Notes under the pieces: generated by a model
Databases searched by the model: none
Seen by the model: only the letters and a program-made list of their open reading frames with translations
What the model was told of the DNA's origin: nothing
Assembly: GCF_036924745.1 (NCBI RefSeq)
Contig: NZ_JAZHSD010000001.1
Span: forward strand, 6,695,001-6,759,000
Reading direction: 5' to 3'
Length of the DNA: 64,000 bases
From: Bradyrhizobium sp. AZCC 1693
GTDB taxonomy: Bacteria; Pseudomonadota; Alphaproteobacteria; Rhizobiales; Xanthobacteraceae
Program-made: the position numbers and the translations under genes
Part shown: positions 34,516 through 43,723 of the stretch, one piece after another
Layout: each line of letters begins with the position of its first letter
Numbering within the stretch: the stretch's first letter is position 1

Positions 34516-34880
34516 CAGCGCCAGGAATGTCAGAATCTGTGCCCATCGCGTCATTTCGCTGCTGCGCAGCAATCGCGTCGCTTCAGGAGCAAGCCGGACA
34601 TCAACTTCGTCGCGTCACGCCACCGGGCTTATTGGCATGCGGCCTGGCCGCGTCCGCGGTCCGCCGCCTTCGCGTTGAAACCGCAGGTGGTGGGCGAGGG
34701 CCCGCAACGGCGTTTTTCGCTCAAGGGTTGTACATTGTGGCGGCCGTCGCAGTTTGGTTCCAAACATAGCCTCGTTTCACCACAGCGCCGCCTGACTTAA
34801 ACATCGTCGCGCCCGAAGTTCCCTCTTCAGCTTGGTTCCGCAACATGTGTTGCGTGTGTCGTGCGTGATGAGGTGCGTTG
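34516..34880. other. Intergenic region before the porin-like gene
   Basis: About 365 bases with no supported gene. It is moderately AT-rich near 34770-34880, where the porin promoter should lie. No repeat or recognisable operator was seen. Confidence 0.45.
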
Positions 34881-35579
34881 ATGCGTTTTGTTTCCTGGGG
34901 GATCGTTGCCGCTTGTGGCTTTTTACTGGCAGGATCGGCAGCTAAGGCTACCGATCTTCGTATTCCGGACTTGCCCTCGCCTCAGTACAACTGGACGGGG
35001 TTCTATGCAGGCGTTTACGGCGGTGGGGCGTATGCGGCGTGGGCATCTGACTACTGCCGAAATGGTGCTTGCCGTCATGCAGAGGGGCAGGCGAGCGGCT
35101 TCGCCGTCGGCGTCTATGGTGGCTACAACCATCAGTTCGCCAACCGCTTTGTGATCGGCGGCGAACTCGATTGGGGCAAATCCTCCTCGTCGCGGGACGA
35201 ACTGATCTTTGGCGACAGTGCGCTACTGTCGAGCTTCGGCGCATTCGGCTCCGCGCGGTTGCGCGCAGGCTACGCGTTCGACCGCCTGCTGGCGTTTGGC
35301 GCCGTCGGCGTCGGCTTCGCCAGCATCAGCAACGGCTACCGCTATACGATCCAGAAAGGGTGCGACACCCTGCAGCAGGCGATTTGGGACGAACAGGTCA
35401 AGGCCGGACTGATCGTCGGCGGCGGCTTCGAGTATGCCTTCACCAAGCATTTTGTCGGACGCGGCGAATATCTCTACGCCGATTATGGGAGCGTCACGCT
35501 GTCCAGCAAGGATCGCACGCGGGCCGAATTTCGCAACGAGATGCATCTCGTGCGCGTCGGCGCCAGCTACCGGTTCTGA
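34881..35579 (+). CDS. Outer membrane beta-barrel protein (Omp25/Omp31-like porin family)
   Basis: A 232-residue protein with a signal peptide (MRFVSWGIVAACGFLLAG, cleavage near AAKA) and the characteristic N-terminal strand YNWTGFYAGVYGGGAY. Alternating beta strands follow, ending in aromatic Phe (VGASYRF), the outer-membrane assembly signal. It probably forms an eight-stranded barrel. Many paralogues exist in this group; its role is structural or unknown. Two cysteines (DYCRNGAC) could form a loop disulfide. Confidence 0.88.
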   Translation: MRFVSWGIVAACGFLLAGSAAKATDLRIPDLPSPQYNWTGFYAGVYGGGAYAAWASDYCRNGACRHAEGQASGFAVGVYGGYNHQFANRFVIGGELDWGKSSSSRDELIFGDSALLSSFGAFGSARLRAGYAFDRLLAFGAVGVGFASISNGYRYTIQKGCDTLQQAIWDEQVKAGLIVGGGFEYAFTKHFVGRGEYLYADYGSVTLSSKDRTRAEFRNEMHLVRVGASYRF

Positions 35580-35636: not shown

Positions 35637-36626
35637 CTATTGTCCGCGCGGTGCGGTGATCGCCTTGCGGATCGCCGCGAGCGGCGCGCTGTCGTCGAAT
35701 TCAATATCTTCGCCAATCCGCTTCAATCCGAGGTCGCGCCATAGCGCGGCGAGATCGGGGGTCACGGGCTTCGGCCCCATCTCGTTGTGGAGCCGGGTCA
35801 GCACGCCGACGCCGACGGCCTTGTCGGCGGTTGCGAGAATGCGCTCGATCGGCCAGTCCTGCTCGTGACTGCCGCCGGCGGCGAGCACGCCGCGCATCGC
35901 GTCCTGCAAGCCGAGGCGATTATTCGTCGCTTTGCGGATTTCGATATCGGCCAGCAGGCAGAACATCGCGCCGCCCCAGTATTTGCGCCCCCAGGTGGGC
36001 GTGTTGTCGAGGCCCTGATCGCCGGCCTGTGGCAGACCTTTCGGCATGTCGCGCATCATCGCCTGCCAGATTTCCCGCGCGTTAAGGTCTCCGGCCTGCA
36101 CCCGCGCGACAGGCTCGATATAGACGGCCAATCCCTCCGACAGCCAGGCGTAGCGATCGGGCATATCGGGCAGGGCGGTGTGCACCATCTCGTGCACCAT
36201 CACCCAGTCGCGCTGCAAAACATCCTCGGTGGAGTCGCGGCCGAGCGGAATGCGAATGGCGGCGCCGCGATAGCCCCACGTGGTGCCGCCGCGGATGCGC
36301 CCGCCATCGACGGGCACCAATAGCAGCCGCAGCGAGGTGACGGGAAACCGCCCATAATAGGTCGTGATGGCCCGGGCGCACATCCTGATCCAGTCGAGCA
36401 GTTTTTCCTTGGGCAGCGCGATCTCGCCCGGAGCGAACGCGACATGGATGGTGCCGCCGGGCACTTCGAGATCGGTCCTGGGCAGCAGGTCGAACGCATC
36501 GTAGGGCATTCGGTTGCCGCGCATGTATTCCGATTGCGCGTCGGCGCGGAACGATAGGGCGCCTGCCAGCATCGCGGCGAGGAGGGCTACGGCAACGGTC
36601 CAGCGAAAGGCGCGGGCGGCTTTCAT
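35637..36626 (-). CDS. Secreted HExxH (gluzincin-type) metallopeptidase-like protein
   Basis: A 329-residue protein with an N-terminal signal peptide (VAVALLAAMLAGALS, cleavage near RADA), so it is likely periplasmic or anchored. The zinc motif HEMVH is followed after about 18 residues by LSEGLAVYIEP, giving the third Glu ligand expected of the MA/M61 gluzincins. No family name can be given with confidence. Its start overlaps the creatininase stop (ATGA), so it is the last gene of the run that contains the MNIO maturase. The substrate is unknown; processing of the co-encoded peptides is one hypothesis. Confidence 0.75.
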   Translation of the reverse strand: MKAARAFRWTVAVALLAAMLAGALSFRADAQSEYMRGNRMPYDAFDLLPRTDLEVPGGTIHVAFAPGEIALPKEKLLDWIRMCARAITTYYGRFPVTSLRLLLVPVDGGRIRGGTTWGYRGAAIRIPLGRDSTEDVLQRDWVMVHEMVHTALPDMPDRYAWLSEGLAVYIEPVARVQAGDLNAREIWQAMMRDMPKGLPQAGDQGLDNTPTWGRKYWGGAMFCLLADIEIRKATNNRLGLQDAMRGVLAAGGSHEQDWPIERILATADKAVGVGVLTRLHNEMGPKPVTPDLAALWRDLGLKRIGEDIEFDDSAPLAAIRKAITAPRGQ

Positions 36627-37411
36627 CGCAGCACGCCTTGGACCGTAGCCGATCGATGCTCGCCGGCGCCTTGTGCGATGAAGGCGGCGGCCTGTTCGTG
36701 GAGATCGTCAAGCATGGCGGCGAGCAAGACTTCGCCCTTGGCCGATGTCGCCCGTGTCGGATCGCCATAGCTGCCGGAGCGGCTGTAGTTCGGTGAATTC
36801 GGGTCCGACGGCGTCAATGCGCCCGGCATCTCCTGTTTCAACTCGGGGCTGGCTTCGGCGCGCGCCATGTCGACCAGATGCGGCGCCAGCGCCAGCATCA
36901 GCGACGTTTCCAGTTCGTCGGCATGGCTGCCATGGCTCTGCTCGGCCAATTGCCTGGCGACGCGGGGATAGCGCGGACCTTCGTGGATCCACAAATGCTT
37001 GATCCGCTCGCTCGCGAGGCGCGCCAGCGCGCGGTCGACCGGGGCCAATGTGCTGATCCCGGTATTGAGCACGAGCAGCTTTGCGCAGCCGCTGCCGAGT
37101 ATCTGCCCCGCAACCTCGCGCACCAGCGCCTCGAAGGTCGAGATCGACAGGCTGCTGCTGCCGGCATATTCGACGAAGGCGGGGTAGTGGCCGTAGGTCA
37201 GCGTCGGCCAGATCAACGCGTCGATCTTTTCCGCCATCCGGCCGGCGAGCCACTCGGCCTGAATGCGGTCGGTATTGAGAGGGAGGTGGAAGCCGTGCTG
37301 CTGGGCTGCGGCGCCGATCGGCAATATTGCCACCGCGCCGTCAGCGATGCGCCGCGCGACTTCGTCCCAATGCATGCGCTCGATGAAATGGCGATCGGTG
37401 TCTATTCCCAT
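36623..37411 (-). CDS. Creatininase family protein
   Basis: A 262-residue metal-dependent amidohydrolase-like protein. It has the family N-terminus MHWDEVARRIADGAVAILPIGAAAQQHGFHLPLNTD (metal-binding Glu replaced by Gln in the usual GSxEQHG motif, His kept), the YGHYPAFVEYAGSSSLS segment and HGSHADELETSLMLAL with the later metal ligands. The family includes creatininase, FAPy deformylase and MftE, the peptidase that trims the mycofactocin precursor. It begins 16 bases after the stop of the DUF2063 gene and overlaps the metallopeptidase gene, so it is very likely co-transcribed with the RiPP maturase. Confidence 0.88.
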   Translation of the reverse strand: MGIDTDRHFIERMHWDEVARRIADGAVAILPIGAAAQQHGFHLPLNTDRIQAEWLAGRMAEKIDALIWPTLTYGHYPAFVEYAGSSSLSISTFEALVREVAGQILGSGCAKLLVLNTGISTLAPVDRALARLASERIKHLWIHEGPRYPRVARQLAEQSHGSHADELETSLMLALAPHLVDMARAEASPELKQEMPGALTPSDPNSPNYSRSGSYGDPTRATSAKGEVLLAAMLDDLHEQAAAFIAQGAGEHRSATVQGVLR

Positions 37412-37427
37412 TCGCCGGGCGCCCCTC

Positions 37428-38213
37428 TTATGAGCCGACGGAAACATCCGTCAAAAGTCCTGCCGTGATCCAGCCGTGCAGATAGCCCGCGCCACGGCCC
37501 GCCGCGCTGTCGGGGTCGTCATAAGTAGCTAACATTTCGCAGAGCACGCCGAACGGAATGCCGTTTGCGGCCTCGTCCCACATCATCGCCTCCTCCGCCG
37601 AAATTTCGCGGAACATCGGCGTGACGTCCTGGCGCCAGATCAGGAGATGCGCGGGCTGCTCCAGCCCGGTCGCATCCGGCGGCGCTTCGTCGTTCTTGAG
37701 CGCAAGCCAGATCGCAGCCGCGTTGGTCGCCAGCTCGAGCCTGGATGCGCTGGGATGCGGCCGGAACCTGAGGCCCGACCATGCTTCGGGCGCAAAGCCC
37801 GCCATGTCGGTCAGCTCGACGACCTCGCCTTCGGCGGCGTCGAAGGCGTCGTTGAGCGCCTTTTCGAGTGCTGCGAGATCGGACAGCTCGGGGTGCTCGG
37901 AATAGGGTGCGGTCGATTTCAGGAACGCCGGCAGGCCTTGCGAGAACCAGCGCAGGTTCGGATGCCCGGACGGGCGCGCCTTGACGTAAGCGTGGCCCAT
38001 CTCATCGAATGTCTCGTCGCCGAGATAAAGATGCAGCAGCTCATGGTCGTTGCGCATGGCCTCGACCAGCCGCGAACCATAGGCATAGCGATAGACCCCG
38101 AACAGCACCTCGCGCTTCTCGCGCGGGCTGTCCAGGATTTCAGCCAGCACCTTTTCGTCGCCATCAAGAATGCCGCGCTGAAACGCGGCCTGCTGTCGCG
38201 CGAAGTCGCTCAT
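37428..38213 (-). CDS. bufC: DUF2063 family partner protein of the MNIO maturase (HvfC/BufC-like)
   Basis: A 261-residue protein. The N-terminal ~95 residues form the DUF2063 domain (FARQQAAFQRGILDG, EVLFGVYRYAYGSRLVEAM), and the rest (WRQDVTPMFREISAEEAMMW) matches the second domain of HvfC/BufC proteins. In characterised systems this partner recognises the precursor leader and presents the cysteine core to the MNIO enzyme. Its start overlaps the maturase stop by four bases (ATGA), the classical coupling. Confidence 0.9.
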   Translation of the reverse strand: MSDFARQQAAFQRGILDGDEKVLAEILDSPREKREVLFGVYRYAYGSRLVEAMRNDHELLHLYLGDETFDEMGHAYVKARPSGHPNLRWFSQGLPAFLKSTAPYSEHPELSDLAALEKALNDAFDAAEGEVVELTDMAGFAPEAWSGLRFRPHPSASRLELATNAAAIWLALKNDEAPPDATGLEQPAHLLIWRQDVTPMFREISAEEAMMWDEAANGIPFGVLCEMLATYDDPDSAAGRGAGYLHGWITAGLLTDVSVGS

Positions 38214-39115
38214 CCCGTCTGCTTGCCTGCCGGCAAAATTTTCTCGGCCATCTCGCGGGTCCTGGCCACCTCAATCAGCAATTCGTCGAGCGGCGGAATG
38301 TTGTCATCGCGCTCAATCATGGTCGAGACCCGGCCGAAGCGCTTCAGCGCCGCGGCATAGAGCTCCCAGACATCCTCGCACACCGGATGGTCGTGGGTGT
38401 CGATGATATGGGTGCCCATGTGGCTGTGGCCGGCCATGTGAAACTGCACCACCCAGTCCGCCGGAATTCCATCGAGGAAGGTCATGGGATCGTAGCCATG
38501 GTTGAAGGCGCTGACATAGACGTTGTTGACGTCGAACAGGAGCCAGCATCCGGAACGTCGCGACAACTCGGACAGGAATTCCCATTCCGTCATTTCGGAA
38601 CTGTTGAACTGGACGTAGGTCGAGACATTCTCGAGCACGATGGCGCGGCCGAGAAAATCCTGCACCAGCTGGACGCGGCTGACGACGTGATCGAGCGCCT
38701 CCCTGGTGTAGGGGATCGGCAGCAGATCATGCAGGTTCTTGCCGTGCACGCCGGTCCAGCACATATGGTCCGACACCCATTTCGGTTCGACGCGCTTGGC
38801 GAGGTCCTTCAAGGCTTGCAGATATTCGAAATTCGGCGGCGCGGTGGAGGCGATCGACATCGACACGCCATGCATCACCACGGGATAGCGTTCGCAAATG
38901 CGATCGAGCGTGCGCAGCGGCTGGCCGCCGGGCAGCATGTAGTTTTCGCTGATGACCTCGAACCAGTCGATCGGCGGATTGCCGCTCAGGATTTCGTCGT
39001 AGTGCTGATGGCGCAGGCCGAGACCGAAGCCGAGGAAGGGCGGCTTGGCCGATTCTATCGGACGGTCTGCAAGCGCGGCCGCCGAAGTATCTGGCAATCT
39101 GCTCGCGACGTTCAT
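38210..39115 (-). CDS. bufB: DUF692 / MNIO family RiPP-modifying oxidase (bufferin maturase-like)
   Basis: Multinuclear non-heme iron-dependent oxidase with a TIM-barrel fold that rewrites cysteines of a peptide substrate, as MbnB, TglH, ChrH and HvfB do. The 301-residue protein shows the likely metal ligands in FEVISENYM (Glu), VVMHGVSMSI (His), WVSDHMCW (Asp/His), LENVSTYV (Glu/Asn), FDVNNVYVSA (Asp), FHMAGHSH (His) and IDTHDHPV (Asp/His). The preferred ATG is 39115; 39175 is an in-frame alternative. It lies about 110 bases after the nearer precursor gene and overlaps the DUF2063 gene. Confidence 0.93.
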   Translation of the reverse strand: MNVASRLPDTSAAALADRPIESAKPPFLGFGLGLRHQHYDEILSGNPPIDWFEVISENYMLPGGQPLRTLDRICERYPVVMHGVSMSIASTAPPNFEYLQALKDLAKRVEPKWVSDHMCWTGVHGKNLHDLLPIPYTREALDHVVSRVQLVQDFLGRAIVLENVSTYVQFNSSEMTEWEFLSELSRRSGCWLLFDVNNVYVSAFNHGYDPMTFLDGIPADWVVQFHMAGHSHMGTHIIDTHDHPVCEDVWELYAAALKRFGRVSTMIERDDNIPPLDELLIEVARTREMAEKILPAGKQTG

Positions 39116-39225
39116 CTCGTCTCCACTGGCGCCGCCAAACGAGGCGTGTCCCAAACTACGCCACGAAACTATCATGGAAACGAGGCCCGGCCTACACCGG
39201 GCCCCGATTGAACCATACCAGGTAA

Positions 39226-39483
39226 CTAGGACGGCGTGAACTTGCCCTTGGCCGCGGCACACTTCTCCTTGGTCATCTCCGAGAAGCCCTGCCCCTTGCA
39301 GGCGTTCTGTCCCTTGCAGGCATGATTGCCGCCCTTGCAGGCGCTCTGGCCCTTGCAGGCGTTGGCGCCGACGCACTTTCCTTCGCCGGCGGCATAGGTC
39401 ACGGTCGACATGGTGGCGCCCGCCAGGAACAGGGTGGCTGCAGCGGCGGCAATGGCGGCGCCGGACTTGGAAGTCATCTTCAT
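39226..39483 (-). CDS. Bufferin-like RiPP precursor with ACKGQ repeats (proximal copy)
   Basis: An 85-residue precursor: a Sec signal peptide (SGAAIAAAAATLFLAGAT, cleavage near VTYA) and then a core with six cysteines, AGEGKC, GANACKGQSACKGG, HACKGQNACKGQGF and a final EKC. The EGKC and repeated ACKG units resemble the cysteine motifs of HvfA/BufA2 copper-chelating peptides modified by MNIO enzymes. It has a strong ribosome binding site (GGAGGATACAA) and its own GTAACC-N16-CGTA promoter. Periplasmic copper buffering is inferred from the families, not shown here. Confidence 0.87.
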   Translation of the reverse strand: MKMTSKSGAAIAAAAATLFLAGATMSTVTYAAGEGKCVGANACKGQSACKGGNHACKGQNACKGQGFSEMTKEKCAAAKGKFTPS

Positions 39484-39566
39484 TTGTATCCTCCAAAAAG
39501 AAGTGTGAGGGTGCATCGCCCGCAAGCAGCGACAGTTCCAGCCGACAAACGGCACCCAGAAGCAGT

Positions 39567-39592
39567 TACGCGGTGGGTCTGGCTTTGGTTAC
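39567..39592 (-). promoter_or_regulatory. ECF-sigma-type promoter of the proximal precursor gene
   Basis: Reading the minus strand: GTAACC, exactly 16 bases, CGTA. The CGTA is about 84 bases before the start codon at 39483. The same hexamer, spacing and tetramer occur before the distal precursor (40105-40130). The form agrees with the GTAACC-N16-CGAA type motif reported for Caulobacter SigF, a heavy-metal-responsive ECF factor; that attribution is from memory. Confidence 0.7.
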
Positions 39593-39676
39593 ACGCGCGG
39601 CCCGATTTATTTCAGCCGCCGGGTCGAAACAAAGAGGGCCCGGGAGCGCCGGGCCCTCCGCGCACCTATGCGCCGA

Positions 39677-39940
39677 TCAACCCTTGACGAACTTGGCGCC
39701 CATGGCGGCGCACTGCTTTTCGCCAGCCATCGAGAAGCCGGTGCCCTTGCAGGCGTTCTGGCCCTTGCAGGCATTCGCGGAGCCCTTGCAGGCGCTCTGG
39801 CCCTTGCAGGCGTTGCCGGCCATGCACTTGCCCTGGGCGGCGTTCGCCGGCGTCGACACCGTCGACACCACCGAGCCCGCGAGGAACAGGGTGGCGGCGG
39901 CAGCGGCGAGCGTCGCACCGGATTTGGAATTCAACTTCAT
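39677..39940 (-). CDS. Bufferin-like RiPP precursor with ACKGQ repeats (distal copy)
   Basis: An 87-residue paralogue of the precursor at 39226. The signal peptide (LAAAAATLFLAGSVVST, cleavage near PANA) is followed by AQGKCMAGNACKGQSACKG, NACKGQNACKGTGF and a final KQC. It again has six cysteines at matching positions, but the first motif is QGKC instead of EGKC. The ATG at 39940 has GGAGAT upstream. It is the first peptide gene of the run and has its own promoter about 165 bases upstream. The near-identical cysteine spacing means both copies are likely substrates of the same MNIO enzyme. Confidence 0.87.
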   Translation of the reverse strand: MKLNSKSGATLAAAAATLFLAGSVVSTVSTPANAAQGKCMAGNACKGQSACKGSANACKGQNACKGTGFSMAGEKQCAAMGAKFVKG

Positions 39941-40313: not shown

Positions 40314-42101
40314 CTATCCACGCACAGGCTTCAGCTTTGCCATCTGCGCCACCGTGGCGCGCAGCTCCTCGGCGTTGAAGGAGGGAAACGAACAGATGCG
40401 GTTGCTGCAGGCGAATGCCGCGGGTTCGCCGAGGTCGGGATATTCGACGTCGGGGTTGGGTAATTTGCCCTCGCGCAGATCCAGCCACTCCAGCCGCTTG
40501 TAGCGGGCCGGCAGCGCACGGGCCAGGGCATGAAGGTTTTTCGCGCGGGCGTCGTCCTTGTGTCCGACGATTGTCATGTGGGTGGGCTCGACCGCGAGCT
40601 CTTCGTCGGCGAGCAAAATGCCGGGCAGCGGGCGCATCATCCCGGCCGAGGCGCTGGCGAGATAGCGCATCGCGTGCGCGGCCTGCTCGCGATAGCCTTC
40701 GTTGCCGAAGTAGCGGTTGAGCAGGTTCATGAATCTTGCGACCTGCACCTGGTCGTCGATCAGCTTGGCGGGTTTTGCGAGCACGCCGGTCTTGCCTTCG
40801 GCGGTCTTCGAGGTCGCGAAGCCGCCGGCCTCATCGCGGAAGGTCGCGACGAAATCGCCGGCCTTGGCGGCTGCCGTGAGCCAGTCGCGATTTCCGGTGG
40901 CGGCATAGAGATCGAGGAAGGCCTGGCCCATCGCGAGCGTATCGCCGAGAAATGGCCCGCCGCGATCCTTCTCGCCGTGACGGAAACCGCCATCCGGCAG
41001 CGCGCGGTTGTCGATCACCCATTTCGCCGCGCGTTCGGCGATCGCCAGCGCCTTGGGATCGTTGGTGACGTTGTAGTAGGCGGCAAGTCCTGAAATGGCC
41101 CAGCCATTTTCGCGCGCGTATAAATTCTTGTCGATGCGCGGCATGCCCAGTTTGCGGCGCTCGCTGTCCGATAGCGCGTAGTATTTGTGCCCGTCGGTAT
41201 CGTGGTTGAGATCGGCGTCCTGGCTGACATGGAACGCACCGTCAGGGCTGGTCAGAAATTCCGCGAGATAGCGTTCGATGTTGCGCGCGGCGGCAAGATA
41301 TTTCGGATCCTTCCACAGCGCGTAGGCCTGGCTGTACTGCCGGAGATATTGCGCCTGAAACGACATGATCTTTTCGAAATGCGCATGGGTCCAGGAGCCC
41401 GCTTCGGAATACTGGTACACGCCGCCCCAGACCGGATCGATCAACGCAATGGCGGCATCCAAGGTCTGCCGGGCGCGCTTGATCGCGGTGGCGTCGCCGG
41501 CTTCGGCGCGGGTGATCGCCAGATCCATGCTGTCGGCGTCGATGTATTTCTGGTTCTCGCCCCAGCCGCCGAGTTTTTCCTCGTAGGATTCGTCGACATT
41601 CTTGGTCAACGCGGCGCGCTGTTCTTTGTCGAGGAAGGCGGAGGTCGACGGCTTCACCTCGAAGGCTTCGCCGACCGACGGTCCGGGCGACGGATCGTCG
41701 ATGATGGCTTTCAGCAGCGCCTGCATCCGCTCCGGCTCGATATATCCCCTGATCTTGGCGATCTCGGTGCCGTCGGGGCCGAACACGATGGTCGCCGGCC
41801 AGCCCCAGTCGCCGTAGCGGCTCGACAGATCGGGGTTGGCGTCCTGATCGACCCGCACCGGCAGATATTTCGCGGCCAGCAATTCCCTGACTTCGGGATT
41901 GGCGTAGGTCGTCTTCTCCATGACATGGCACCAGTGGCACCACACCGCCTCGAGATCGAGAATGACGAAGCGCTGCTCGGCCTGCGCGCGGGTGAACAGG
42001 TCGTCGCTCCATTCACTCCATCTGGGTCCGTCCGAAGCGAACGACGGAGACACGGCAAATGCGGCGAGGGCGACGAAGTCGGCAAGGCGGACGAGTTTCA
42101 T
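40314..42101 (-). CDS. Secreted DUF255 / thioredoxin-domain protein (SSP411/YyaL-like)
   Basis: A 595-residue protein. It starts with a signal peptide (VRLADFVALAAFAVSPSFA) and a thioredoxin-like domain with the redox motif AVWCHWCHVMEKTTY and the cis-Pro loop GWPATIVFGPDG, then an alpha/alpha six-hairpin-like domain of about 400 residues (for example YALSDSERRKLGMPRIDKN, GGPFLGDTLAMGQAFLDLY). Most DUF255 proteins are cytoplasmic, so the signal peptide is notable. It follows doxX by about 90 bases on the same strand and precedes the precursor genes. A periplasmic thiol-redox role is inferred; ATG 42101 is chosen to keep the signal peptide. Confidence 0.85.
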   Translation of the reverse strand: MKLVRLADFVALAAFAVSPSFASDGPRWSEWSDDLFTRAQAEQRFVILDLEAVWCHWCHVMEKTTYANPEVRELLAAKYLPVRVDQDANPDLSSRYGDWGWPATIVFGPDGTEIAKIRGYIEPERMQALLKAIIDDPSPGPSVGEAFEVKPSTSAFLDKEQRAALTKNVDESYEEKLGGWGENQKYIDADSMDLAITRAEAGDATAIKRARQTLDAAIALIDPVWGGVYQYSEAGSWTHAHFEKIMSFQAQYLRQYSQAYALWKDPKYLAAARNIERYLAEFLTSPDGAFHVSQDADLNHDTDGHKYYALSDSERRKLGMPRIDKNLYARENGWAISGLAAYYNVTNDPKALAIAERAAKWVIDNRALPDGGFRHGEKDRGGPFLGDTLAMGQAFLDLYAATGNRDWLTAAAKAGDFVATFRDEAGGFATSKTAEGKTGVLAKPAKLIDDQVQVARFMNLLNRYFGNEGYREQAAHAMRYLASASAGMMRPLPGILLADEELAVEPTHMTIVGHKDDARAKNLHALARALPARYKRLEWLDLREGKLPNPDVEYPDLGEPAAFACSNRICSFPSFNAEELRATVAQMAKLKPVRG

Positions 42102-42190: not shown

Positions 42191-42655
42191 TCAGGTCGAT
42201 TTCTCGCTGTGGCCGGCCGCATTCACCAGCAGCCGGTCCAGTGACGCCGCGCCGGGACCGCAGATCGCCAACCACATGAAGCCGGCGAAGTAGGCCGCCT
42301 CCTCGAAGCCGAGCAGCGTCTCCAGCGAATCGACGTCGCCCCATTTCGCCGACCTGATGGCGACCACCATGACCACCGCCAGCATCGCGGCCGGGATTCG
42401 CGTGAACAGGCCGAGGATCAGCATCGCACCGCCGAAAAATTCGACGCCCGACACAAAAGGAGTAAGTATTTTGGGAAGCGGAATGCCCCAACTGATAAAG
42501 TTTTCGGTCACCTGCGCCAGATTATTGAGCTTGCCCCAGCCGGTCAGCATGAAGGTGTAACCGACGATGAGCCGCATGATCAGGGGGCCGACCCAGGAAA
42601 AATGCGACGCGATCTGCGCAGGCAGCAGGATGAGCAGATGGACGATGAAATACAT
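42191..42655 (-). CDS. DoxX family membrane protein (HvfD/BufD-like)
   Basis: A 154-residue inner-membrane protein with four helices and the DoxX motifs LIMRLIVGYTFMLTGWGKL and SGVEFFGGAMLILGLFTRIPA. DoxX proteins are the usual fourth component of Hvf/Buf bufferin operons, so its presence two genes upstream of the precursors supports the assignment. The frame is open far upstream (to 43141), but ATG 42655 gives the family N-terminus. It is preceded by a GTAACA-N16-CGAA promoter-like element. Confidence 0.85.
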   Translation of the reverse strand: MYFIVHLLILLPAQIASHFSWVGPLIMRLIVGYTFMLTGWGKLNNLAQVTENFISWGIPLPKILTPFVSGVEFFGGAMLILGLFTRIPAAMLAVVMVVAIRSAKWGDVDSLETLLGFEEAAYFAGFMWLAICGPGAASLDRLLVNAAGHSEKST

Positions 42656-42792: not shown

Positions 42793-43524
42793 CTAACCGA
42801 AATTTTGCAGTGCGGGGAAAGTCTCCAGCAGCCAGATGCTGATGCTGGTGACGGAGCCGGTCAGGAAGCCGATGCCGGTGATCACCATCAGGATGCCCAT
42901 GGCATGCTCGACCTTGCCGAGATGTCGCTTCATCCGCGCAAAGAGCGAGGAGAACTGTTCGATCATGAAGGCCGCCAGCAGGAACGGGATTCCGAGGCCT
43001 GCGGAATAGACTGCGAGCAGGCCAGCGCCCTTGGTGACCGTGGCCTCGGCCGCTGCGATCGACAGGATCGCCGCCAGAATGGGCCCGATGCAGGGCGTCC
43101 AGCCGAAGGCGAAGGCGAGCCCCATGGCATAGGCGCCCCACAGCCCGACCGGCTTCGGCATCGTCATCCGTCCCTCGCGCATCAACAGCCCGATCCGGGT
43201 CAGGCCGAGGAAATGCAGGCCCATGATAATGATGACGATGCCGGCCAGGATCGAGAGCTCGGCCGACCAGGCGCGGATCAGGCCGCCGATCAGGGAAGCG
43301 CTGGCGCCGAGCGCCACGAAGACGGTGGAAAAGCCGAGCACGAATATCACCGCCGATGCCATCACCGCCCGCTTGGAGGTCTGCGTCGTCTCCTCATTGG
43401 CGACATGCTCGATGGTCGCGCCGGTGAGATAGATCAGATAGGGCGGCACCAAAGGCAGCACGCAGGGGGACAGGAAGCTGACGAGACCGGCAATCAGGGC
43501 CGCCGGGATGGAAACATCGTGCAT
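42793..43524 (-). CDS. ccdA: CcdA / DsbD-type cytochrome c biogenesis thiol transporter
   Basis: A 243-residue inner-membrane protein with six helices that passes reducing power from cytoplasmic thioredoxin to periplasmic thiols. Both redox cysteines are visible in their motifs: FLSPCVLPLVPPYL in helix 1 and GWTPCIGPILAAIL in helix 4. The start is placed at ATG 43524 (MHDVSIPAAL); 43566 is an alternative. It is the first gene of the minus-strand run that continues through doxX, the DUF255 protein and the RiPP genes. Confidence 0.9.
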   Translation of the reverse strand: MHDVSIPAALIAGLVSFLSPCVLPLVPPYLIYLTGATIEHVANEETTQTSKRAVMASAVIFVLGFSTVFVALGASASLIGGLIRAWSAELSILAGIVIIIMGLHFLGLTRIGLLMREGRMTMPKPVGLWGAYAMGLAFAFGWTPCIGPILAAILSIAAAEATVTKGAGLLAVYSAGLGIPFLLAAFMIEQFSSLFARMKRHLGKVEHAMGILMVITGIGFLTGSVTSISIWLLETFPALQNFG

Positions 43525-43723
43525 TGCATGACCTTCGAGAATTGCCACAAGGCATAGCGCCGTCATGGCCTATACGGAACAGACAATCGATAAGTTTCGT
43601 CGTCATTACGGCTCAAGTTCGGTCACAGAGCCGTGTCCGGGACGCCGAAATGGCCTCGCCGCTGAAACAGACGCTGGTATGGTCGCGTAATGCCGGTAAC
43701 GGCCCCGCGACACAGGACCCCTC

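Follow-up and report, generated by a model that had tools for sequence, protein, structure and literature searches.

The window analysed here is the whole stretch of 64,000 nucleotides from Bradyrhizobium sp. AZCC 1693 (contig NZ_JAZHSD010000001.1, positions 6,695,001 to 6,759,000), the host genome being a single contig of 7.6 Mb. Its nearest named relatives, in a scan of named genomes, are Bradyrhizobium. The minus strand carries a block of nine genes that, on the basis of its gene families, is assigned to the Buf2 bufferin (captophorin) clusters, and which also encodes a secreted gluzincin peptidase, a creatininase-fold protein and proteins of thiol redox type. Through these additions the block represents an extended version of the Buf2 bufferin system, which is not confined to the window. 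The features are given below in the order of transcription, with bit scores against the cut-offs of the models.

42793-43566, minus strand: ccdA, CcdA/DsbD transmembrane-domain protein (PF02683, 54.9 against 27.1)
42191-42655, minus strand: doxX, DoxX family membrane protein (PF07681, 74.8 against 23.6)
40314-42101, minus strand: DUF255-type thioredoxin protein, secreted, the signal being recognised by eye (PF03190, 77.2 against 27)
39677-39940, minus strand: bufA2a, Buf2 bufferin precursor of 87 residues with six cysteines (NF050166, 71.3 against 60)
39633-39659, minus strand: terminator-like hairpin of 11 pairs, 3' of bufA2a (pattern scan)
39226-39483, minus strand: bufA2b, second Buf2 bufferin precursor, 85 residues with six cysteines (NF050166, 82.9 against 60)
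38210-39115, minus strand: bufB, MNIO (DUF692) (PF05114, 374 against 25; NF050167, 385.6 against 310)
37428-38213, minus strand: bufC, DUF2063 partner (PME type 1) (PF09836, 61.5 against 27.2)
36623-37411, minus strand: creatininase-fold protein of the Lys clade, predicted cytoplasmic (PF02633, 165.8 against 31.3; alignments; match of the predicted model)
35637-36626, minus strand: M61/M1-like gluzincin, secreted, HExxH (HEMVH at residues 145-149 and Glu164; fold)

The assignment to Buf2 follows from the BufA2 precursors with six cysteines and a signal, the BufB-type MNIO and the DUF2063 partner. The N-terminus of both precursors is of the Sec type, as judged by eye, and all six cysteines fall within the mature part. 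DoxX reaches 62.6 bits with the NCBIfam HvfX-like model, which is under the cut-off of 80. The DUF255-type protein comprises a thioredoxin domain with a CHWC motif and a glycosidase-like part (GH127 and GH88 over cut-off), and CcdA is the likely electron carrier to the periplasm. An ATGA is shared at the bufB/bufC junction (38210-38213) and again between the creatininase-fold and HExxH genes (36623-36626), and 16 bases separate the DUF2063 gene from the creatininase gene when the inner start of the latter is used. A longer ATG start at 37447 is also present; relatives in the database (e.g. P0176) start at the inner Met. A first-pass annotation, made from the sequence alone, had described two six-cysteine secreted peptides followed on one strand by MNIO, DUF2063, creatininase and HExxH genes, with ATGA overlaps and a 16-base gap among the last four and a bufferin layout. 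All of these genes lie where it placed them, the junctions are as it described, and BufA2 and BufB score over the NCBIfam cut-offs. The thioredoxin/DUF255, doxX and ccdA genes upstream, which it had left aside, are part of the same conserved block. The hairpin after bufA2a could raise the precursor transcripts over those of the enzymes; the scan that found it gave 12 sites against 7.0 expected from shuffles, and is on its own no evidence of function.

A relative of the creatininase-fold protein has been identified in 19 loci of the named genomes. All nine genes are matched in the same order in 16 of these (15 Bradyrhizobium and L050, a Hyphomicrobiales metagenome-assembled genome), with three precursors in L050, a gap of 3.3 kb in L045 and a thioredoxin gene matched in part in L036. 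Two of the remaining three loci end at contig edges and one (L049) is rearranged. The shared nine-gene order therefore argues that the arrangement of the cluster is not due to chance. The gap in L045 (4016-7353) lies between the thioredoxin gene and bufA2a in Bradyrhizobium murdochi. L049 is a 3.1 kb contig of a metagenome-assembled genome labelled Novosphingobium, with the order DUF2063, creatininase, peptidase, ccdA, doxX and about 70-87% identity; a binning error or a transfer is possible.

Among 146 genomes of the same genus, a BufB orthologue (at least 81% identity, E <1e-140) is present in 43, and an orthologue of the creatininase in 35, all of them inside those 43. The two genes lie at most about 1 kb apart in 34 of the 35, by the printed coordinates, and the remaining pair is split over two contigs. 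In six of the eight BufB-orthologue genomes without the creatininase the peptidase follows directly after DUF2063 (G189 being cut at a contig end); the other two have neither creatininase nor peptidase within the fetched stretch. G339 presents the reverse case, a creatininase without peptidase. The creatininase and peptidase genes are thus separable.

Both genes are under purifying selection. The median ratio of non-synonymous to synonymous substitution rates (Ka/Ks) against 15 relatives is 0.16 for the creatininase and 0.16 for the peptidase, compared with 0.11 for BufB and 0.19 and 0.17 for the precursors. A decaying creatininase gene was ruled out by this value together with the open frames in the window. 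Eight genomes of the genus were flagged with an internal stop in the creatininase match, and five were inspected (all except G252, G219 and G241). The stop in G138, G246 and G152 falls within the first eight matched residues, upstream of the inner start, and G180 and G263 have no stop in the matched stretch. A database protein of 517 residues (P0004) consists of about the first 190 residues of the creatininase joined to the peptidase, which may have arisen by gene fusion, by deletion or through faulty assembly.

The peptidase has no Pfam match listed up to E 10 and is therefore classed no further than M61/M1-like; in L216, a distant relative, PF01433 is matched weakly, below the cut-off. The fold of its catalytic domain is that of M61/M1 gluzincins, the matches including the M61 enzyme 7xyo from Myxococcus fulvus, which has 524 residues against 329 in the window protein. 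HExxH and the downstream Glu are invariant in 20 of 20 aligned rows, and in 120 of 120 homologues among the matches listed. Since the zinc site is intact, cutting of the exported bufferin by this enzyme is plausible from its sequence. MfuP, the M61 peptidase of a lanthipeptide cluster in M. fulvus, shares 14-19% identity with it and serves a different class of ribosomally synthesised and post-translationally modified peptide (RiPP); it cuts a modified RiPP core, according to part of PMC10885120.

The occurrence of this peptidase is tied to that of close BufB (E <1e-100). The sample of the order, 249 genomes, includes 17 that encode the peptidase and 34 that encode close BufB, with 15 encoding both (Fisher p 5e-13; G424 has a further partial BufB match). 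Outside the genus 11 of 13 peptidase genomes have close BufB (p 1e-9). A sample of 240 genomes of the class has the peptidase in 13, close BufB in 15 and both in 12 (p 1e-16), often at separate loci; identity to the query is 31-46% for the peptidases outside the own genome. Restricting the count to the 90 class genomes with any BufB match (E 1e-30) leaves the overlap at 12 of 13 (p 2e-11). The cut-off was chosen after a gap seen in the order sample (1e-106 to 1e-78). As this choice was post hoc and the class sample has no such gap, the cut-off was varied, and from 1e-105 to 1e-70 p stays at or below 1.1e-12 throughout. Fisher tests ignore phylogeny, and the only guard is a count by family, in which close BufB is present in 9 of the 10 peptidase-bearing families other than the window's own. 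The peptidase and close BufB thus show near-exclusive co-occurrence. In L205, L207 and L209, three loci of the class sample, two MNIO-DUF2063 pairs of differing classes adjoin (about 40-43% and 58-62% identity to the window BufB).

The active site of the creatininase-fold protein differs from that of canonical creatininases. In Pseudomonas creatininase the positions Glu34 and His120 are what we take to be the canonical metal ligands. The best PDB match, a creatininase, has EQHGHHMCMNVD aligned with QQHGFHLPLNTD of the window protein, one residue being inserted just before, and NGH aligned with NTG. In all 51 orthologue rows of at least 63% identity, counted without the window and with a few genomes represented twice, Lys stands at the Glu position and Gly at the His position; rows of at most 36% identity keep the canonical Glu in 23 of 23 and the His in 21 of 22 readable cases. 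Within the class set, the readable clade members have Lys in 14 of 16, with one Arg and one Gln (the window), and the canonical His in 0 of 17, while the other creatininases keep Glu in 13 of 13 and His in 11 of 13. The residue at the Glu position is Lys in 119 and Gln in 1 of the 120 best database homologues among the matches listed. The window protein itself has Gln at the Glu position and Gly at the His position. Its codon at 37301-37303, residue 49 of the longer frame from 37447, is CAG (Gln), and given Gln for Lys the protein may be impaired in this strain.

The 14 rows of the clade profile A3 show little or no variation in the motifs HGxHLPxxTD and HxDExETS, and G728 and G756 partly depart from these pocket residues. 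The predicted model, with a mean predicted local distance difference test (pLDDT) score of 78, matches the creatininases 3a6e and 1j2t (Foldseek E 1e-16 for 3a6e). The protein therefore keeps the fold and a conserved pocket, and not the canonical two-metal centre. Both curated cut-offs are missed, MftE with 87.2 against 172 bits and creatininase with 97.8 against 235 bits. In a quick tree the clade is separated from seven canonical creatininases by a branch with a support of 98 in the Shimodaira-Hasegawa-like approximate likelihood ratio test (SH-aLRT).

Profile A3 identifies this Lys clade in 17 genomes of the class sample at E <1e-60, the best other creatininase being at 1e-37 and at most 11 candidates having been scored per genome. 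Both the peptidase and close BufB are encoded in 11 of these 17. Direct neighbourhood of the peptidase and creatininase genes is seen in G593, G606, G648, G720 and G725. In G538, G594 and G720 bufABC is on the same stretch as both, and in G538 and G594 the thioredoxin gene stands between them; the creatininase is absent from the fetched bufferin stretch in the other 7 of the 10 shared genomes (own genome excluded). Clade members in genomes without close BufB have among their neighbours an oligopeptide-transporter ATPase and binding protein, a flavin adenine dinucleotide (FAD) dehydrogenase, a dienelactone-hydrolase-like protein, a nitronate monooxygenase and a pyridoxal phosphate (PLP) enzyme. 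These neighbours suggest a catabolic hydrolase as the starting point of the clade, with recruitment later on. The Lys-clade creatininase adjoins genes of FAD dehydrogenase type in L254, L255, L256 and L210 (assigned by Pfam for L256 and L210 and by clustering for L254 and L255), with components of the oligopeptide transporter also beside it in L254 and L256, and these neighbourhoods may reveal the original chemistry of the clade.

Of the redox genes, that of the thioredoxin/DUF255 protein has been identified in 7 of the 249 order genomes, all seven with close BufB. Among 48 class genomes, which were hand-picked and are not a random draw, it is found at E <1e-100 in 7, all from the 11 that have both the peptidase and close BufB; at this threshold none of the 4 BufB-only genomes (G636 barely misses) and none of the 33 others (one weak match) has it. 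The tie to Buf2 is strongest for the peptidase and the thioredoxin, and weaker, still present, for the creatininase. Periplasmic thiol-reduction systems of the DsbD/Scs type are linked to copper. The window resembles them in its DsbD-type membrane domain (CcdA) and secreted thioredoxin domain, and differs in that its thioredoxin belongs to the DUF255 type and bears a glycosidase-like part. A modified thiooxazole peptide is described in part of PMC13097082 as prone to aggregation, disulfides being the hypothesis of its authors, and a reducing arm would therefore make sense. L180 and L181 have BufB but no creatininase, and their fetched stretches show no peptidase; close to their bufferin genes are divergent genes of CcdA-like and thioredoxin-like type (26-30% identity), which may stand in as a redox arm.

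The window shares with known Buf2/captophorin clusters its BufA2 and BufB over the NCBIfam cut-offs, DUF2063 and DoxX over those of Pfam, Sec-type signals and tandem precursors; the latter are reported also in the portion consulted of a survey of MNIO clusters (PMC12452194). It adds to them the secreted gluzincin, the Lys-clade creatininase-fold protein, the DUF255-type thioredoxin and CcdA. In that portion of the survey, conserved genes beyond precursor, MNIO, DUF2063 and DoxX are reported in extremely low proportions, and the authors state that they did not identify the Buf2 modification, for which membership of the class would predict a Cys-derived 5-thiooxazole along with copper binding; the main text has no word starting with creatinin or peptidase and mentions proteases in general once (PMC12452194). 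Among the matches listed from main texts of the open-licence literature, no paper joins MNIO, bufferin or DUF2063 with creatininase, or bufferins with a dedicated peptidase. Related clusters of Microbulbifer, in the part of PMC12538549 that concerns them, encode no protease nearby, and an undigested peptide is thought plausible there.

In the scheme that we favour, BufB and its DUF2063 partner would modify cysteines of BufA2a and BufA2b in the cytoplasm, and the modified BufA2 would be exported by Sec and then bind copper in the periplasm, as is known for the family. The secreted M61/M1-like peptidase would cut BufA2 after export, whether to trim it or to remove copies that are metal-loaded or oxidised, and CcdA with the secreted thioredoxin protein would keep the bufferin thiols reduced. 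The creatininase-fold protein may be a retooled member of its fold in which Lys replaces a metal ligand, most likely acting within the cytoplasm on cyclic amide-like fragments that stem from bufferin or resemble such products, or else serving as a binding partner. The above observations establish the anatomy of the block, the families of its proteins, the state of their active sites and the linkage and co-occurrence of the genes, and from them we infer these roles towards substrates. A Buf2 operon with a conserved accessory arm acting on bufferin is, taken as a whole, the best explanation, and we regard it as evenly poised between right and wrong. A more specific form, in which processing and recycling are dedicated to bufferin, the M61-like peptidase cutting the exported modified peptide and the Lys-rebuilt creatininase-fold enzyme opening or hydrolysing the fragments in the cytoplasm, is put forward tentatively and is rather unlikely.

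Several observations weigh against an arm that acts on bufferin. In the order sample the fetched flanks of 12 of the 17 peptidase genes are free of close BufB, the other five being four in the genus and that of G456, which lies in a Buf2 cluster without creatininase. Two of the 12 stretches are short at contig ends, and G288 has, at a distance of about 8.5 kb, a BufB that belongs to another class. Close BufB occurs without peptidase in 19 of the 34 order-sample genomes and in 3 genomes of the class sample. Six of the 17 Lys-clade genomes have neither peptidase nor close BufB, and the clade is therefore not bufferin-specific; peptidase or creatininase loci exclusive to bufferins were rejected on these counts. 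Profile A3 is partly circular, since seven of its rows come from class genomes chosen for the peptidase. When those genomes and the own genome are left out, close BufB is present in 3 of 9 clade genomes (p 0.001) and the peptidase likewise in 3 of 9 (p 4e-4). A preference for close-BufB genomes, far weaker, is seen for ordinary creatininases too (11/15 against 84/225, p 0.007). Finally, BufA2 of peptidase genomes (18 precursors) shows no clear difference by eye from that of loci without peptidase (11 precursors, of which three, from G245 and G269, had peptidase absence checked on the fetched stretch alone); no feature of BufA2 could be tied to the peptidase, and thus nothing indicates a cleavage site. 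The first-pass annotation had held that the creatininase/peptidase pair would lie mostly away from DUF692 genes in relatives if its reading were wrong. On this point the outcome is mixed but favourable, with the close spacing to BufB within the genus (34 of 35) and same-genome co-occurrence in 15 of 17 and 12 of 13, and with the dispersed peptidase genes of the order farther out. Its broader claim that the extra genes belong with the bufferins stands as regards linkage and co-occurrence, and has to be qualified as both genes are separable and often at other loci.

These points are accommodated by a shared regulon, in which peptidase, creatininase-fold protein and thioredoxin answer the same copper or thiol stress and clear damaged proteins or imported peptides, leaving BufA2 untouched. 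The frequent distance of the peptidase and creatininase genes from bufferin genes, the oligopeptide transporter parts beside some Lys-clade creatininases and the lack of a peptidase-linked change in BufA2 would all be expected from it, whereas the near-exclusive co-occurrence of peptidase and close BufB, the ATGA coupling and the fixed order in Bradyrhizobium argue for a closer tie; a regulon of this kind is a possible explanation, although one that we hold to be somewhat improbable. The first-pass annotation had instead modelled the creatininase on MftE of mycofactocin, which belongs to the same fold family (PF02633) and is RiPP-associated, with trimming of the precursor before export and a periplasmic protease thereafter. 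According to part of PMC10885120, MftE is indeed homologous to creatininase and cuts the leader of a RiPP, and in the window the creatininase gene is translationally coupled. The analogy fails in the protein itself, which is far under the MftE cut-off and lacks the canonical ligand Glu and His. MftE-type trimming is unlikely because the clade has lost two ligand positions (Glu to Lys, His to Gly) and yet stays under purifying selection. Moreover, removal of the N-terminus in the cytoplasm would presumably block export of Sec-signal Buf2 precursors, and six of the eight close relatives without the creatininase gene retain bufferin genes and peptidase. MftE-type trimming was rejected on ligand loss, model scores and separability from the bufferin and peptidase genes, and the protein is probably not a leader-removing metallopeptidase of MftE type. 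The pre-export model as a whole is very unlikely, its periplasmic half, the cutting of exported bufferin, being the part that stays plausible from sequence.

The combination of lost ligands, other pocket residues kept in the 14 rows of A3 and a Ka/Ks of 0.16 would also suit a non-catalytic partner of BufB-DUF2063 or of the precursor, for example a chaperone or metal-delivery factor. The conserved polar residues, including the almost invariant Lys and the Ser-Thr, look catalytic, and clade members occur in genomes without close BufB, which makes such a role doubtful. Chance neighbours fixed through shared ancestry could account for the gene order inside Bradyrhizobium by common descent, and are scarcely credible in view of the co-occurrence, with different gene orders, in 9 of 10 other peptidase-bearing families.

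As the accessory genes recur in distant bufferin-making bacteria, they point to an undescribed step in the life of bufferin peptides. MNIO-modified bufferins number in thousands. Since peptidase, creatininase-fold clade and thioredoxin accompany a single class of bufferin across the bacterial class, what becomes of the modified peptide after export can be tested directly. The co-occurrence also brings to light a branch of the creatininase fold whose active site has been rebuilt. A recycling pathway, if true, would provide the first set of enzymes for the proteolysis or salvage of thiooxazole peptides, across Alphaproteobacteria.

In the window, a plus-strand gene for an outer-membrane beta-barrel protein (34878-35579) runs towards the end of the peptidase gene, and is found directly at this place in 9 of the 19 named loci.

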